In this document: one piece after another, positions 20,194 to 27,244 of the stretch | Layout: each line of letters opens with the position of its first letter | Position numbering within the stretch: the first letter of the stretch is position 1 | NCBI GenBank assembly: GCA_003164785.1 | Contig: PLUE01000037.1 | Coordinates: forward strand, 1-64,000 | Source: Gammaproteobacteria bacterium | GTDB lineage: Bacteria > Pseudomonadota > Gammaproteobacteria > Steroidobacterales > Steroidobacteraceae | Direction of reading: 5' to 3' | Length of the DNA: 64,000 nt | Program-made: the position numbers and the translations under genes | Notes under the pieces: generated by a model | What the model was told of the DNA's origin: nothing | Databases searched by the model: none | The model's input: the letters and a program-made list of their open reading frames with translations, nothing else

Positions 20194-21396
20194 CTACTGC
20201 CGGCTCCCCGCCAATGCCCGGATGATGTCGGTCTCGCAGCACACCCCGATGATCTTGCCGCCGTCCGACAGCAACACGGGATGGCCGCTCGACTGCCGCA
20301 GCTGGATGATGGATTGCAGCGAGAAGGAGGCGGGCGCCACCACGAGCCCGGGCTCGATGTTCGCGATGCCGGCATCGTCGTGGACGTGCCGCAGCGCATG
20401 GGCGACGCCGTCCAGCTCGAGATCGAGCGCCTCATCGTTGGCGCTCATCGACAACCGGTAGCGGTGCCGCTCGTCCAGCCACAGGGTATTGCCTTCGCCC
20501 TGCATGTTCGCGCGTTGGTTCATGATCATGCTGCCCGTGAGCACGTCGAGCGGGTTCATGTGACGCACGAATTCGGCGACATAATCGTCGGCCGGCGCCA
20601 GGACGATGTCCTCGGCCGTGCCGGTCTGAATGATGCGGCCGTTCTGCAGGATCGAGATGCGGTCACCGAGCCGCAGCGCCTCGTCCAAGTCGTGGCTGAC
20701 GAACAGGATGGTCTTCTTGACGCGCTCCTGCAGCGCCAGCAGCTCGTCCTGGAGCTTGCCGCGAATCAACGGGTCGAGGGCGGAGAACGGTTCGTCCATC
20801 AACAGGATGTCGGCGTCGGTGGCGAAGGCGCGTGCCAGGCCGACGCGCTGTTGCATGCCGCCGGACAGCTCGCTCACGTAACGTTCGGCCCATTGCGACA
20901 GACCGACCAGCTCGAGCTTGTCGTCGACGATGGTCTTGCGCGTGGCGGCGCTCTCGCCACGCAGTTCCAGGCCGAAGCCCACATTCTCCCGCACGGTTCG
21001 CCAGGGCAGCAGTCCGAACTGTTGGAACACCATGGCCACGCGCTCGCGCCGCACCTTGCGCATCTGGGCCGTGTCGCAGGTCGCCACGTCGATGGCCGAG
21101 TCGCCAGCGCGCACGAGCACATGGCCGCGGGTGACCGGGTTGAGGCCGTTCGCCGCGCGCAGCAGCGTGGACTTGCCGGAGCCCGACAGGCCCATGAGCA
21201 CGGATATTTCACCGCGCGCCACGCTCAGCGAGGCGCCGGCCACGCCGACGATCACGCCGAACTTGTCCTGGATGTCGGTGCGGGTACCGCCGGCGTCCAG
21301 GGCGGCCAGTGCCTTAGTCGTGGCCTTGCGGCCGTCGCGGCCCGGTTCCCGGGCGAACAGGATGTCGACGTTCTGAAACTCAATTGCTGCAGTCAT
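20194..21396 (-). CDS. Choline/betaine/carnitine ABC importer ATPase, ProV/ChoV type
   Basis: A 400-residue ATPase of the OpuA/ProV family: Walker A GLSGSGKST (about 75-83), FQQFGLLPWRTV, signature LSGGMQQR, Walker B ILLMDEPFSALDP, and a C-terminal CBS-like region (SGHPVLLSDGGKIIGV) typical of osmolyte importers. The ATG at 21396 overlaps the end of the fused permease gene (ATGA) and has GGAG 7 bp upstream; the frame continues further up but only as a shadow. It energises the fused transporter encoded just before it. Confidence 0.9.
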   Translation of the reverse strand: MTAAIEFQNVDILFAREPGRDGRKATTKALAALDAGGTRTDIQDKFGVIVGVAGASLSVARGEISVLMGLSGSGKSTLLRAANGLNPVTRGHVLVRAGDSAIDVATCDTAQMRKVRRERVAMVFQQFGLLPWRTVRENVGFGLELRGESAATRKTIVDDKLELVGLSQWAERYVSELSGGMQQRVGLARAFATDADILLMDEPFSALDPLIRGKLQDELLALQERVKKTILFVSHDLDEALRLGDRISILQNGRIIQTGTAEDIVLAPADDYVAEFVRHMNPLDVLTGSMIMNQRANMQGEGNTLWLDERHRYRLSMSANDEALDLELDGVAHALRHVHDDAGIANIEPGLVVAPASFSLQSIIQLRQSSGHPVLLSDGGKIIGVCCETDIIRALAGSRQ

Positions 21397-23357
21397 CGCG
21401 ATGCTCCGCGCTCTTTGGGCCTGCTGATACGATCCAAGATGATGGCGAGCAACACGATGGTGAAGCCCGCCTCGAATCCCATGCCAACCTGCACCGAATT
21501 GAGTGCGCGCACCACCGGCACGCCCAAGCCGCCGGCCCCGACGAGCGCCGCGATGACCACCATCGACAGGCTGAGCATGATGCACTGAGTGATGCCGGCA
21601 ATGATGGTTCCGGCCGCGCTCGGCAATTCGATTTTCCACAGCAATTGCATGGAGGTAGCGCCGAAAGATTGTCCCGCTTCGATGAGGGTTTTCGGCACCG
21701 ACGAGATGCCGAGGTGAGTCATGCGAATGGGTGCCGGCAGGGCGAAGATCACGGTGGAGATGAGGCCGGGGACCACCCCCAGGCCGAACAGCACCAGGGT
21801 CGGGATCAGGTAGACGAAGGTCGGCAGGGTCTGCATCAAATCGAGCACCGGGCGCAGCGCGGCGAACAGCCGCGGCCGGTGCGCCGCCGCGATCCCCAGG
21901 GGCACGCCGATGGCGGCCGACGCGAAGGTGGCGACCACCACGAGCGCCAGCGTCTCGAGGGTCGCGATCCAATAGCCCTGATTGAGGATGAACAGCAGCG
22001 CGAGGCCGACGAACGCCGTCAAGGTGAGGGAGCGGCGCAGCACGTAGGCAAGGACAGCGATCGCGAGGATCAGCGCCGGCGCGGGGATGGCGCGCAGCCC
22101 GGCGGTCACCCCGTTCACCATCCCGCGAATCACGATCGAGATGCCGTCGAACACGAACATGCCGTGATTCTTCACGTTGTCGATGAAGGTCGCCATCGCA
22201 TCGCCGACCGGGATCTTGTGGCTGACGATCCATTGCTCGAAGCCGCCCGGCACCGGCGGCGGTGCGGCGTGCGCCAGGGCGGTGGCGGCGGCCTTGCCGT
22301 CGAAGGTGGTGACGCCTTTGAGCCATGCTTTGGTCACCGTCGGATTGGCCTTGAGCCACTCGGCGGCCGCAATCTCGGGCTGCTCGTGGCGATCGAGGAT
22401 GGCCGCCATCATTTCGCTTTCACCGCGCAGGCTGAACTTCAAATTCATGAGCAGACGTCCGACGTTGGGGCACTGCTCGCTGAAGCCCTTGCGGGTGAGG
22501 GTGTAGATGGTGGCGCCGCCGTAATTCTGGCCGAAGATCGCATCGCCGCCCTCGAGATATTTGATGTCGAAGCGCATGTTCATGGGATGCGGCTCCCATG
22601 CCAGAAACACGATCGGCTGCTTGTTGCGGATGGAGCGCTCGACCTGCGCGAGCATGCCTTGCTCGCTCGACTCCACCAATTTGAAATCGCCCAGGCCGAA
22701 GGCGTCCTGCTTGAGCATCTTGAGGACCAGCCGGTTGCCGTCGTTGCCCGCCTCGATGCCATAAATCTCTTTGTTAAGACCTAGTTCGAACTTCTTGATA
22801 TCGTTGAAGTCACGCAGCCCCGACGCATAGCTGTAGGCGGGCACGGCGAGCGAATATTTTGCGCCCTCGAGGTTCGCGCCCAAGACCACCACCGAGCCGT
22901 CGGCCAGGTAGGGGGCGCGGTCGCCCTCCTGGGCCGGCATCCAGTCGCCGAGGAACACGTCGACGTCCTTGTTCTGCATCGAGGCGAAGGTCACCGGCAC
23001 GGAGAGCACCGTGATGGTCGGCGAGTAGCCGATCGTTTTCAGCAGCTGCGCCGCCAACGCGGTCGTGGCGGTGACATCGGTCCAGCCGACATCCGAGAAC
23101 CGCACGTTGCGGCAGGTCGCCGGGTCGCCGGCCGCCGCGTCGCGGGCCACCACGCCGGGCGGCGCGATGGCGCCGGGCGCCGTGTCGGGGGCCGTATCGG
23201 CCGCCGCCGCGCGCTCGCCGGCGGCGAGCAGGACGGCGGCGAGCAGCAGCAGCAGGGCGGCCGAGGCCCACTTGACCCCGCGGCCGGCGGAGCGGCATGA
23301 TCCGATTAGAGAATTAGCATTTGAATGGTTGTTTAACGAGATCTGGTTGGCGCTCAA
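21393..23357 (-). CDS. Substrate-binding protein fused to ABC permease (ChoX-ChoW type)
   Basis: A 654-residue fusion. Residues 1-52 are a signal/anchor segment. About 80-345 is a quaternary-amine binding protein with aromatic-box motifs DVGWTDVTA, FLGDWMPAQEGD, PAYSYASG and LAWEPHPMN, as in choline-binding ChoX or carnitine-binding CaiX. About 395-645 is a ProW-type permease with several helices and the EAA-like loop (KTLIEAGQSFGAT). Cys residues near 82 and 303 could form the disulfide reported for ChoX. The start is TTG with AGGA 7 bp upstream. The binding domain precedes the permease, the reverse of the OpuA order. Confidence 0.88.
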   Translation of the reverse strand: MSANQISLNNHSNANSLIGSCRSAGRGVKWASAALLLLLAAVLLAAGERAAAADTAPDTAPGAIAPPGVVARDAAAGDPATCRNVRFSDVGWTDVTATTALAAQLLKTIGYSPTITVLSVPVTFASMQNKDVDVFLGDWMPAQEGDRAPYLADGSVVVLGANLEGAKYSLAVPAYSYASGLRDFNDIKKFELGLNKEIYGIEAGNDGNRLVLKMLKQDAFGLGDFKLVESSEQGMLAQVERSIRNKQPIVFLAWEPHPMNMRFDIKYLEGGDAIFGQNYGGATIYTLTRKGFSEQCPNVGRLLMNLKFSLRGESEMMAAILDRHEQPEIAAAEWLKANPTVTKAWLKGVTTFDGKAAATALAHAAPPPVPGGFEQWIVSHKIPVGDAMATFIDNVKNHGMFVFDGISIVIRGMVNGVTAGLRAIPAPALILAIAVLAYVLRRSLTLTAFVGLALLFILNQGYWIATLETLALVVVATFASAAIGVPLGIAAAHRPRLFAALRPVLDLMQTLPTFVYLIPTLVLFGLGVVPGLISTVIFALPAPIRMTHLGISSVPKTLIEAGQSFGATSMQLLWKIELPSAAGTIIAGITQCIMLSLSMVVIAALVGAGGLGVPVVRALNSVQVGMGFEAGFTIVLLAIILDRISRPKERGASR

Positions 23358-23382
23358 ACAAGCTTCCTAATAGATTGAAATT

Positions 23383-23390
23383 ATACGTAT
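23383..23390. promoter_or_regulatory. Palindrome in the importer/betI-betB divergent promoter
   Basis: ATACGTAT, perfect 8-bp palindrome inside ATTATACGTATTAC, centred in the 64-bp gap between the leftward importer operon and the rightward betI-betB fusion. A single site here could control both directions, as BetI operators do in other bet loci. The sequence match to known BetI sites is not established. Confidence 0.4.
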
Positions 23391-23421
23391 TACTCGTCGC
23401 ATCCCATCTTAGACGGTAGTC

Positions 23422-25557
23422 ATGCCGTGCGTCCACAACCACATTTTGCAAGCAGTGAAGGCACCAACATTGAACACCCAGTCAGTCCTCCCTGCACGCA
23501 CTTCGACCGAACCGCCGGAAGACTCGCGTCGCCGTCAGTTGATCGAGGTCACCATCGACAGCCTAGCTGAACTTGGCTACGTCGGCACCACGCTTGCGCA
23601 GGTAACGGGACGGGCCGGGGTGACGCCGGGGTTGGTGGCGCACTACTTCGGCGACAAGGACGGGCTGATGGATGCGGCGTTTCGATCGCTGGCGCGGCGG
23701 GTCGGTGCGCATGTCCGGGCGCGATTGCGGATGGTGAGTACTCCGCGGGGACGAATTCAAGCGGTCATCGATGCCAATCTGGCGCCCGAGGAATTTGCGC
23801 AAAGAACCGGCACGGCGTGGCTCGCCTTCTGGGGCCAGGTGTTGCAGGTGCCCAGCCTGAAGCGCGTGCAAGCGGTCTATCAGCGCCGCACGCTCACCAA
23901 TCTGCGCGCCGCGCTCAAGCTGCTCGTTCCCGCGGACGAGGCCCAGCGTCTGGCGGCGATGATCGCGGCGATGATCGACGGCGTCTGGTTGCGGGCGGCG
24001 CTCTCCGGATGGCGCGAGGCGGACAGCGAAAGTGCGCGTGCGTTGCTCACGGAATTCGTCGATGGGCGTTTGGCCGGGAAGGCCGCCGCGTCGGACGCCC
24101 CAAGTCGGGGCATGGGCGCGAGCCTGCCGCCGGCCGGCGAGCGTTTCGCCTCCGTCAATCCGGCCACCGGCGAGGTATTGGGGTACGTCAAGGTTGCCGG
24201 TGCGGCCGAGATCGACGCGGCGGTGCGTGCCGCGCAGAAGGCGCAGCCGGCGTGGGGCGCCAGCACCGGCGCGGAACGGGCGCGCATCCTGCGGCGCGCG
24301 GCGCAGATCCTGCGATCGCGAAACCAGGAACTCGCGGAACTCGAAACGCGCGACACCGGCAAGCCCATCCAGGAAACCCGGGTCGTCGACGTGATCTCCG
24401 GCGCGGATTGCTTCGAGTACTTTGCCTCGCTCGCGCAGAGCCTCAGCGGCGAACACATCGATCTGGGTCCGACGGCCTTCGGGTACACGCGGCGCGAGCC
24501 GCTGGGTGTGGTGGCCGGGATCGGCGCGGCCGGCCTAGGCGCCTGGAATTATCCGCTGCAGATCGCCTGCTGGAAGGCGGCGCCGGCGCTGGCCTGCGGC
24601 AACGCCATGATCTTCAAGCCGGCGGACCTCACACCGCTCACGGCGGTCAAGCTCGAGGCGATTCTGCTGGAGGCGGGGTTGCCTGCCGGGGTGTTTCAAG
24701 TCGTGCAAGGCTTTGCGGAAACCGGCCGGTTGCTGGCGCGGCATCCGGACATCCGCAAGATATCGCTCACCGGCGCGGTCGCCACGGGCAGGGTGGTGAT
24801 GACCGACGCGGCGCAGACGCTGAAGAGCGTGACGCTGGAACTCGGCGGCAAGTCGCCCCTGATCATCTTCGAGGACGCGAAGCTGGACAATGCGGTGTCC
24901 GGCGCGCTGCTCGCCAATTTCTATTCGTCGGGGCAGGTGTGTTCGAATGCCACGCGCGTGTTCGTTCACCGGGCCGTGAAGGCCGAGTTTCTGGCGCGCC
25001 TGGTCAAGCGGGTCGGGGCGATGCGCATCGGCGATCCGATGGACTCGGCCACGCAGGTGGGCGCGTTGGCCTCGGAGCAGCACATGCACAAGGTGCTCGG
25101 CTACATCGAGCGCGGCCGGGCGGAGGGCGCGAGACTGTTGATCGGCGGCCATCGGGTGACCACCGGGGAGCTGGCGAAGGGCTTTTTCGTCGCGCCGGCC
25201 ATCTTCGACGGATGCCGTGACGACATGGGCATCGTGCGCGAGGAGATCTTCGGGCCGGTGATGTCGGTCATGGAGTTCGAGGAGGAAGCCGAGGTGATCG
25301 CGCGCGCCAACTCCACGGAGTTCGGGCTTGCGGCGGGCGTATTCACCAACGATCTGACCCGAGCCCATCGCGTGATCGCCCAATTGCAGGCCGGAACCTG
25401 CTGGATCAACCACTACAACGTGACGCCGATCGAGCTGCCGTTCGGCGGCGTGAAGATGTCCGGCCTGGGCAGGGAGAACGGTCGCGCGGCCATCGAGCAT
25501 TACACGCAGCTGAAGAGCGTTTACGTCGCCATGGGCGATGTCGACGCGCCATATTGA
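23422..25557 (+). CDS. betI-betB: BetI repressor fused to betaine aldehyde dehydrogenase (BetI-BetB)
   Basis: One 711-residue open frame. Residues about 36-225 are a complete Bet[45 protein letters not shown] and [15 protein letters not shown]. Residues about 240-711 are Bet[11 protein letters not shown], catalytic Glu473 (LELGGKSP), catalytic Cys507 ([11 protein letters not shown]) and C-terminal [15 protein letters not shown]. BetB lacks its usual first ~18 residues, as a true fusion would. An internal ATG at 24112 could yield BetB alone but has no clear ribosome site. Near residue 370 there is a 5-residue insertion next to the WNYP oxyanion motif. Predicted: choline-responsive repression plus betaine aldehyde oxidation. 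betA follows after 25 bp. Confidence 0.85.
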
Positions 25558-25582: not shown

Positions 25583-27244
25583 ATGAGCAATGAGACTTTC
25601 GATACCGTGATCGTCGGCGCCGGATCCGCGGGATGCGTGCTGGCGAATCGATTGAGCGCGGGCGGCACGCGCCGGGTGCTGGTGCTCGAATACGGCGGCT
25701 CCGACCGCTCCATCTTCATCCAGATGCCCTCGGCGCTGTCGATTCCGATGAACATGCCGAAGTACAACTGGTTCTATCACACCGAGCCCGAGCCGCACCT
25801 GGGCGGGCGCAGCATGCACACGCCGCGCGGCAAGGTGCTGGGCGGATCGTCCTCGATCAACGGACTGGTGTACATCCGCGGCAACCCGCAGGATTTCGAG
25901 CGCTGGGACAGTGAAGGCGCGGCAGGGTGGTCATATCGAGACGTGTTGCCGTATTTCAAACGCGCCGAGAACCGCGACGAAGGGGGCGACGAGTATCGCG
26001 GCAGCGGCGGCCCGCTGCAGACGCGGTACGGCACACTGAAGAATCCGCTGCACGCCGCGTGGCTCAAGGCGGGAACCGAAGCGGGATACCCGCCCTCGAC
26101 GGACGTCAACGGCTTCCGGCAGGAAGGCTTCGGCCGCATGGACATGACCGTGGGCGACGGCCGGCGCAGCAGCGCGTCGAACGTGTACCTGCGGCCGATC
26201 ATGTCGCGCCCCAATCTCAAGGTGCTGACGCATGCGCTGGCGACGCGCATCGTGTTCGACGGCCGGCGCGCCAAGGCGCTCGAATACACCCACGGCGGCA
26301 CCACGCACCGGGTGAACATCGGCCGTGAGTTGATCCTCGCGGGAGGCCCGATCAACTCGCCGCAGCTGTTGAAGCTGTCCGGCGTGGGTCCGGCGGCGGA
26401 GCTGCGGGCGCTCGGCATCGACGTGGTGCACGACCTGCCGGGGGTGGGCGAGAACCTCCAGGATCATCTGGAATTTTACTTTCAAGTCGCGTGCAAGGAG
26501 CCCATCAGCCTGTATTCGTCGATCAATCTGTGGAGCCGCGCGCTGATCGGTGCGCGCTGGCTGCTGCGCAAGGACGGCCTGGGCGCCACGAACCACTTCG
26601 AGACCTGTGGATTCATCCGCAGCCGGGCGGGGATCGCGTACCCCGACATTCAATATCATTTCCTGCCCATGGCGGTGGCCTACGATGGCTCGACACTGGC
26701 GCAGGAACATGGCTTCCAGGCCCACGTGGGACCGATGCGCACCAAGAGCCGCGGCTGGGTGCATCTCGCCTCGAAGAATCCCTTGGACAAGCCGAAGATC
26801 CTGTTCAACTACCTGAGCGAACCCGATGACTGGACCGAAATGCGGGCCTGCGTCCGACTCACCCGCGAGATTTTTGCGCAACCCGCCTTCGACCGCTATC
26901 GCGGCCGCGAGATCCAGCCGGGCCCCGACGTGCAGACCGATGCGCAGATCGATGAGTTCATCCGTGCCAAGGTGGAGAGTGCCTACCATCCCTCGTGTTC
27001 GTGCAAGATGGGCGCGGCGGATGACAAGATGGCCGTGGTCGATCCGCAGACGCGGGTGTATGGACTGAAGAACCTGCATGTGGTGGACTCGTCCATCATG
27101 CCCTCGGTGACGACCGGCAACCTGAACGCGCCGACCATCATGCTCGCCGAGAAGGCGGCGGATCATATCTTGGGCAAGGGGATGCTCGCGCCGGAGGACG
27201 CGCCGTTTTACTCGGCGTTGAACTGGCGGGAGGCGCAGCGCTGA
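25583..27244 (+). CDS. betA: Choline dehydrogenase, GMC family
   Basis: A 553-residue FAD flavoprotein that oxidises choline to betaine aldehyde at the inner membrane. FAD loop VIVGAGSAGCVLANRLS (8-24), GMC signature 1 (PRGKVLGGSSSINGLVYIRG), signature 2 (GGPINSPQLLKLSGVGP) and the C-terminal catalytic His region (SAYHPSCSCKMG, then VVDSSIMPSVTTGNLNAP). The ATG at 25583 is chosen for its AAAGGAA site and the family N-terminus. It directly follows the betI-betB fusion, giving a bet operon order of (IB)A. Confidence 0.93.
   Translation: MSNETFDTVIVGAGSAGCVLANRLSAGGTRRVLVLEYGGSDRSIFIQMPSALSIPMNMPKYNWFYHTEPEPHLGGRSMHTPRGKVLGGSSSINGLVYIRGNPQDFERWDSEGAAGWSYRDVLPYFKRAENRDEGGDEYRGSGGPLQTRYGTLKNPLHAAWLKAGTEAGYPPSTDVNGFRQEGFGRMDMTVGDGRRSSASNVYLRPIMSRPNLKVLTHALATRIVFDGRRAKALEYTHGGTTHRVNIGRELILAGGPINSPQLLKLSGVGPAAELRALGIDVVHDLPGVGENLQDHLEFYFQVACKEPISLYSSINLWSRALIGARWLLRKDGLGATNHFETCGFIRSRAGIAYPDIQYHFLPMAVAYDGSTLAQEHGFQAHVGPMRTKSRGWVHLASKNPLDKPKILFNYLSEPDDWTEMRACVRLTREIFAQPAFDRYRGREIQPGPDVQTDAQIDEFIRAKVESAYHPSCSCKMGAADDKMAVVDPQTRVYGLKNLHVVDSSIMPSVTTGNLNAPTIMLAEKAADHILGKGMLAPEDAPFYSALNWREAQR

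Follow-up and report, generated by a model that had tools for sequence, protein, structure and literature searches.

The window, the whole 64,000-nucleotide stretch of Steroidobacteraceae DNA analysed here, carries a gene, betIB, which we read, with a probability of roughly 0.78, as encoding a choline-responsive repressor and a betaine-aldehyde dehydrogenase in a single chain of one evolutionary origin, so that the repressor is tethered to the enzyme under its control. Five features are observed directly among genomes: the two-part architecture, its conservation, selection on both halves, conserved boxes upstream, and disappearance of the box along with the BetI half. BetIB is a genuine, conserved architecture built from two well-known parts. 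No BetI-BetB fusion is described in the literature searched, with subscription journals and preprints outside its scope.

The fused gene occupies 23422..25557 on the plus strand, where the open reading frame is free of stops throughout and open from an ATG at 23422. Translation is likely to begin at TTG 23470, giving 695 residues, because the first ATG, GTG or TTG in the relative L010, whose frame opens just 9 codons ahead of that start codon, aligns with residue 17; the frames of L009 and L055 could also begin at residue 1. All Pfam matches in the fused chain exceed their cut-offs: TetR_N at residues 40-86 (plus strand), the helix-turn-helix of the BetI half; the BetI-type TetR_C_6 at 108-217; and Aldedh at 239-700. 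An earlier, sequence-only reading of this DNA had claimed a 711-residue protein with BetI and BetB in one frame. The single frame is confirmed by the absence of stops and by both sets of domains, as are the positions given for the catalytic residues, Glu473 and Cys507; the length gives way to the likely 695. On the plus strand, the BetI half spans residues 33-222 (23518..24087; Pfam TetR_N and TetR_C_6, NCBIfam NF001978), the linker residues 223-238 (24088..24135), and the BetB half residues 239-711 (24136..25554). Against NF001978, the BetI half scores 183.8 bits, above the cut-off of 118; against TIGR03384 (cut-off 201.3), the window (190.0) and L055 (192.7) both fall narrowly short, and the Ancylobacter copy, L113 (208.6), lies above. 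The BetB half clears NF009725 (764.6, cut-off 593); for TIGR01804 (cut-off 668.6) the window is just below at 654.6, with L055 (673.8) and L113 (699.3) above. The window's own genome contains no second orthologue of BetI or BetB, the next-best identities being 44% for BetB and 31% for BetI.

Directly 3' of betIB lies a betA-like GMC oxidoreductase gene (choline dehydrogenase; 25583..27244, plus strand; Pfam GMC_oxred_N and GMC_oxred_C), and a choline/betaine ABC transporter gene is transcribed divergently (21393..23357, minus strand; Pfam OpuAC and BPD_transp_1). The transporter gene encodes a single chain that unites the OpuAC substrate-binding part with the permease part. Simple scanning for promoters and terminators returned one match of each kind, and no argument is built on either.

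The same reading had credited the BetB half with a complete catalytic core. While Glu473 and Cys507 are present, this wording is too strong: the NAD/oxyanion motif [PA]-[LVI]-G-x4-[ILV]-G-A-W-N-Y-P has five extra residues, ahead of WNYP, in the window copy. The underlying 15-bp insertion (24523..24537, plus strand; exact placement ambiguous) is found in the window only, 1 of 160 BetB sequences, the other 159 being gap-free at the motif, and by eye it resembles a diverged tandem duplication of the preceding 15 bp. In AlphaFold models, mean confidence is 66 in the insertion block, while the corresponding blocks of the Ancylobacter protein reach 82-85. Because the insertion falls in this motif, the activity of the window's enzyme is uncertain, and with its score just under the TIGR01804 cut-off as well, this copy may be weak or dead; the insertion itself could reflect an error, a change that the enzyme tolerates, or damage to it. 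The family-level conclusions are independent of it. At the BetB N-terminus, a motif for the first strand is recognisable in 30 of 38 alphaproteobacterial fusions and 0 of 56 steroidobacterial or sphingomonad fusions, the two groups having been listed by hand in keeping with the tree. Loss of the BetB N-terminus through the fusion itself, as first supposed, is therefore contradicted by most alphaproteobacterial fusions, and the strand was evidently eroded after fusion. A second domain swap on BetB is seen in three genomes of one Steroidobacteraceae genus, in which a stretch resembling FdsD (formate dehydrogenase delta; PF11390) stands N-terminally in place of BetI, at L209:2283-3953, L210:2289-3959 and L211:1578-3248 (minus); the assignment is a Pfam match for L211 (E 3e-22) and sequence similarity for the other two.

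How widely is the fusion distributed? Among 22 other genomes of the same genus, 12 have the full, stop-free fusion, and three have apparent fusions broken by contig ends (G006, G019, G022); three have BetB alone (G001, G007, G017), two are ambiguous (G003, G012), and two (G010, G014) have no close orthologue. A sample of 200 genomes from the family gave matches at E<=1e-150 in 79, of which 49, the window's own genome included, span the whole fusion, although one of these matches contains a TGA. Across the phylum, evenly sampled, 136 of 397 genomes matched at E<=1e-140, with a stop-free fusion in four besides our own (G354, G305, G443, G461). More broadly, the 80 named loci considered here are the best-scoring of at least 561 confirmed relatives, not a random sample. 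Every one of these best 80, two of which are cut by a contig end (L131, L132), has a single frame that stays open across both halves; betA lies downstream in 78, the remaining two ending at a contig edge, and a divergent transporter is present in 51, some flanks being short. Carriers among the best 80 comprise Steroidobacteraceae and Caulobacteraceae MAGs, Ancylobacter, Methylobrevis, Faunimonas, Bosea, Azorhizobium, Rhodomicrobium, Acidocella and one Sphingomonas MAG. Four of the 80 (L075, L078, L083, L107) have no ATG, GTG or TTG ahead of the helix-turn-helix, so that a CTG start would be needed. No plasmid record covering 80% of the gene was found in a DNA search; a search by protein led to Komagataeibacter (fused) and Indioceanicola (split). 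On the Komagataeibacter saccharivorans plasmid the fused frame (L219:3546-5576) is stop-free and annotated as betB only, for betaine-aldehyde dehydrogenase.

The history of the fusion was read from a BetB tree of 160 rows, with duplicates and truncated rows removed, a BetI-half tree of 122 rows, and a concatenated tree of 75 rows that includes 47 of the 94 fused rows. In the quick BetB tree, all 94 fused rows fall in one 121-row clade (SH-aLRT 98), which also takes in 17 BetB-only rows and 10 that have a separate betI. Eight of these ten, loci L171-L178, lie inside the fused clade in that tree and were considered as re-split genes, a candidate that was rejected: keeping the fused rows and their nested descendants together without L171-L178 raises the likelihood by 28 units (p-AU 0.697), which makes that tree no worse than the unconstrained one, and in the BetI tree these loci form the sister group of the fusions. 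On these two grounds they are treated as an unfused sister. In L205 and L208, the remaining two of the ten, betI is closed by a stop codon and BetB begins anew in a different frame, with the lost strand still missing. That these two are unfused relics was rejected, since a clade of fused rows only has a p-AU of 0.00019, and they are evidently a real re-split inside the fused clade. In the concatenated tree, the clade of fused and re-split rows has an SH-aLRT of only 82. The BetI-half and concatenated trees agree with the single-origin BetB tree. A single origin of the fusion thus has moderate support from the trees, and it probably lay in an alphaproteobacterium.

In the simplest history, adjacent betI and betB genes would have been joined in an alphaproteobacterium when the betI stop codon was lost and the frame ran on into betB; transfer to the Steroidobacteraceae with erosion of the linker, onward transfer to sphingomonads and repeated loss of the BetI half would have followed. 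The basis for the sphingomonad step is the BetB tree; in the BetI tree the sphingomonad rows stand on long branches outside the main steroidobacterial clade. A search of the 17 BetB-only genomes at E<=1e-12 found no BetI above 33% identity. Since the BetI half has been lost repeatedly, the fusion is dispensable.

Evidence that the BetI half has kept a target comes from the DNA upstream. The regions counted, 124 of at least 200 nt and without duplicates, belong to 95 fused and 29 other loci. A search for gapped palindromes upstream of the 95 fused genes, with no preset sequence, returned TTGAA-N6-TTCAA, which occurs with at most one mismatch in 93 of the 95 (shuffles 0-0.4), that is, in 58/58 steroidobacterial or sphingomonad and 35/37 alphaproteobacterial fusions by the same hand-made grouping; the consensus for the fused family is TTGAAYRNNYRTTYAA. 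The window's operator candidate, O1 (23321..23336; TTGAATGGTTGTTTAA), has one mismatch to TTGAA-N6-TTCAA and is the one place in the 5.85-Mb genome that fits the family consensus exactly. A reversed control pattern matches the genome twice, so it is the place of O1 that counts and not the number of matches. The transporter start is not certain, and TTG 23357 as the start would put O1 within the transporter gene. The 64 bp between the two genes, 23358-23421, had been proposed to contain the operator; the best candidates flank that region instead.

Unfused BetI loci outside the clade present a different spacing. An abutting TTGAA-N2-TTCAA is found in 12 of 19, among them L028, a broken fusion, and nine of the 19 come within one mismatch of the N6 form, since two N6 dyads overlap in the longer unfused box, TTGATTGAACGTTCAATCAA. 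The half-sites of the BetIB box are thus 4 bp further apart than the abutting TTGAAC-GTTCAA of unfused BetI, and we infer that the fusion may bind as a single dimer, as against two for BetI. Of the unfused sister loci, 3/8 have N6-type boxes with one mismatch, so the change in spacing may predate the fusion. For comparison, the footprinted BetI box of Ruegeria is given as ATTGACG*CGTCAAT (PMC12442346). In the BetB-only descendants, a box with at most one mismatch was found in just 2 of 17 in the 500 nt ahead of BetB (shuffles 0.07), and one of these, L216, looks like a true remnant.

A second, weaker operator candidate, O2 (23470..23485; TTGAACACCCAGTCAG), overlaps the likely TTG start. With a pattern drawn from the same fused loci as were scored, O2 occurs near the start codon with at most one mismatch in 60/95 fused loci (shuffles 0.0). 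The window, with an O1-O2 distance of 149 bp, has a poor copy, which carries one mismatch to the O2 pattern and falls short of the general type used to count paired boxes. The peptide motif that O2 encodes can be found by amino acids alone in 46 of the 95, and its Ser codon is TCA in 46/46, compared with 68 TCA codons among the 1612 for Ser in the BetB parts, a bias that points to constraint on O2 as DNA, beyond the peptide. The first codon of the motif is TTG in 38 and CTG in 8. In L052, L051, L048 and L045, the genome copies of the four loci without a conventional start (L075, L078, L083, L107), CTG occupies the place in this second box that is TTG elsewhere, a hint that those four may start at CTG.

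Paired boxes raise the prospect of DNA looping. BetB-type aldehyde dehydrogenases are usually tetrameric, and a BetB tetramer with two BetI dimers could bridge O1 and O2 and loop the divergent promoters; the fusion would then supply a dimeric repressor with a second DNA-binding head. This proposal, which is compatible with a tethered repressor, we hold tentatively, and the odds are somewhat against it. It is favoured by the TCA bias, by the presence of at least two general-type boxes that do not overlap in 57/95 fused but 0/18 unfused loci, and by an O1-O2 distance that stays within 133-168 bp at 47 of the 51 loci in which both were scored. However, such pairs also occur in 3/8 unfused sisters and in neither re-split locus (each has one box), 37/95 fused loci, the window included, have a single box of the general type and 1/95 has none, and O2-like sites are found in 5/29 loci not scored as fused, including the broken fusion L028. 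Helical phasing of O1 and O2 was sought and is unconvincing (mean vector 0.39 at 10.5 bp, 0.42 at 12 bp), and paired sites may just serve two promoters.

For a tethered repressor, the reading we prefer, the mechanism could be simple. In the absence of choline, the BetI heads of BetIB dimers would sit on O1, and possibly on O2, around the divergent promoters, silencing both the choline transporter and betIB-betA; choline would free the heads from DNA, and the BetIB then made would serve as dehydrogenase. Binding to DNA, choline as the effector, enzyme activity and feedback behaviour are all predictions of this scheme. With repressor and enzyme locked at 1:1, every enzyme molecule would also be a repressor, ready when choline runs out. 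Since the BetI domain is conserved, with 29/36 signature positions retained in at least 90% of fusions and 28/36 in the window, ordinary choline sensing would be sufficient.

To our knowledge, few enzymes repress their own operon. The DNA-binding part of PutA, one such protein, is not a TetR-type ligand sensor. As described in one account (PMC8249747), PutA, like BetIB, combines a repressor and a catabolic dehydrogenase in one chain beside a divergent transporter, and its switch is membrane binding with proline. By its domains BetIB likewise places repressor and catabolic enzyme in one polypeptide, its DNA binding being predicted from the boxes. The likeness is not one of homology: the chain shows TetR_N, TetR_C_6 and Aldedh only, with none of the RHH, proline dehydrogenase and P5C dehydrogenase domains of PutA, and the Aldedh part scores 282 bits against the P5C dehydrogenase model TIGR01237 (cut-off 660), the BetB models fitting instead.

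Two versions of a PutA-like function can be envisaged. In one, which we consider improbable, BetIB is a self-limiting enzyme-repressor whose BetB tetramer makes BetI bivalent, so that it loops O1 to O2 over the transporter and bet promoters, and whose BetB active-site state feeds back on the loop, making it a TetR-type counterpart of PutA created by the loss of a single stop codon. In the other, put forward by the sequence-only reading and marginally less probable still, the enzyme is the trigger: the BetI half would change with the occupancy or the redox state of BetB's active site (betaine aldehyde, NAD+/NADH), so that the protein reports pathway flux, instead of or besides choline. The layout resembles that of PutA (PMC8249747): the chain holds both repressor and enzyme, the transporter is divergent, and the genome has just one exact box. 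Nevertheless, the retained BetI signature speaks against an enzymatic trigger, as does a DNA-binding part that, unlike that of PutA, is a complete ligand-sensing repressor, and the hypervariable, low-confidence linker does not suggest a tight allosteric interface.

Other known systems share single features with BetIB. With BetI (NF001978, TIGR03384) it has in common a whole-domain match, the signature positions, adjacent targets and a box with TTGAAY half-sites, and it differs in its covalent joining to BetB. With BetB (NF009725) it shares a score above cut-off and the catalytic Glu and Cys; it differs in having BetI N-terminally, in the first strand lost in the window's group, and in the insertion of the window copy alone. 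BdhE and AdhE are fusions of an aldehyde dehydrogenase with an alcohol dehydrogenase, and BdhE resembles BetIB in being a fusion with an aldehyde dehydrogenase close to betaine-aldehyde dehydrogenase; unlike BetIB, these join two channelling enzymes with no regulator, as far as the accessible text of PMC12454647 describes them. Roseobacter BetI2 also has boxes off the usual BetI consensus and forms a divergon with choline transport, but it is a stand-alone protein with two overlapping palindromes, and no fusion is mentioned in the accessible text (PMC12442346).

In the AlphaFold monomer of the window protein, the BetI half folds with confidence, the linker is loose, and confidence is high for most of the aldehyde dehydrogenase part (mean pLDDT 85.9, pTM 0.68); the Ancylobacter monomer has the same layout plus extra N-terminal strands (mean pLDDT 82.1). 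In both, confidence is poor for one hairpin and for roughly the final 50 residues. The models, built on alignments of 74 and 49 sequences, are of monomers, from which domain orientation and oligomer state are not readable. The best fold matches are solved BetB enzymes, with about 58% identity to solved bacterial BetB structures. The window's linker is poorly conserved in the alignment, with pLDDT block means of 62 and 55, and may be cleaved in the cell.

We consider it improbable that translation also begins within the linker and yields BetB as a protein of its own, the fusion being in part a translational overlap. The alphaproteobacterial fusions lend this idea some substance, since 22 of 38 have an in-frame ATG in the linker, perhaps a relic of the old betB start, and 8 of 38 a start codon with a Shine-Dalgarno-like stretch; the window, too, has an in-frame linker ATG, at 24112, which is poorly conserved. 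In the window's group, by contrast, the ATG is present in 2/56 linkers, any of ATG, GTG or TTG in 22/56, and a start with a Shine-Dalgarno-like stretch in 1/56.

Does the BetI half still matter, or is it a passenger on a protein that works as BetB only? Among 11 chosen pairs, 9 fused and 2 unfused, the fused pairs have dN/dS of 0.03-0.09 for BetI and 0.04-0.11 for BetB, values that are rough because dS is about 0.8 or more in 7/11 pairs, and that indicate purifying selection on both halves. At a given BetB identity, BetI identity is much the same with or without fusion (65% fused versus 60% unfused in the 75-80% bin, 58% versus 60% in the 70-75% bin), with just 6 and 7 unfused pairs in these bins. 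The recognition helix reads mostly S-P-G-L-V-A in the fusions (P in 73/94) and mostly S-S/T-G-I-I-S in unfused BetI. L193, L213 and L214 have very long BetI-half branches, yet exact N6 boxes lie upstream of all three. The constraint on both halves, together with the box and its loss where BetI is gone, suggests a BetI half that is still a DNA-binding regulator of the bet locus, alongside a BetB half under selection. A passenger would account for the 17 BetB-only rows within the fused clade, for the fast evolution of the BetI half in a few fused lineages (L193, L213/L214) and for the four of the best-scoring 80 loci that lack a conventional start before the helix-turn-helix. We nonetheless regard it as very improbable, given the low dN/dS of the BetI half, its near-normal divergence relative to BetB, and a box that is retained with the BetI half and lost without it.

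Finally, although the source is a draft assembly in 75 contigs whose contamination is estimated at 6.45%, an assembly or sequencing error at the junction has a negligible chance of explaining the fusion and is ruled out by relatives with the same fused frame, which recurs in 94 non-redundant loci. The sequence-only reading had named a stop or frameshift at the junction, or a lack of homologous fusions in sister genomes, as grounds for refuting the fusion, and this recurrence answers both.

These observations carry a practical warning, as well as an opportunity. A fused gene listed as betB only hides betI, and genomes that carry such annotations can therefore appear to lack it. At the same time, the family offers a natural experiment, in which the unfused sister, the fusion, eroded fusions, the re-split and BetB-only descendants are all extant, and across these states the box mostly tracks the presence of the BetI half. 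This makes it testable whether a 1:1 lock between repressor and enzyme, or an oligomeric body on a dimeric TetR-type repressor, changes control.
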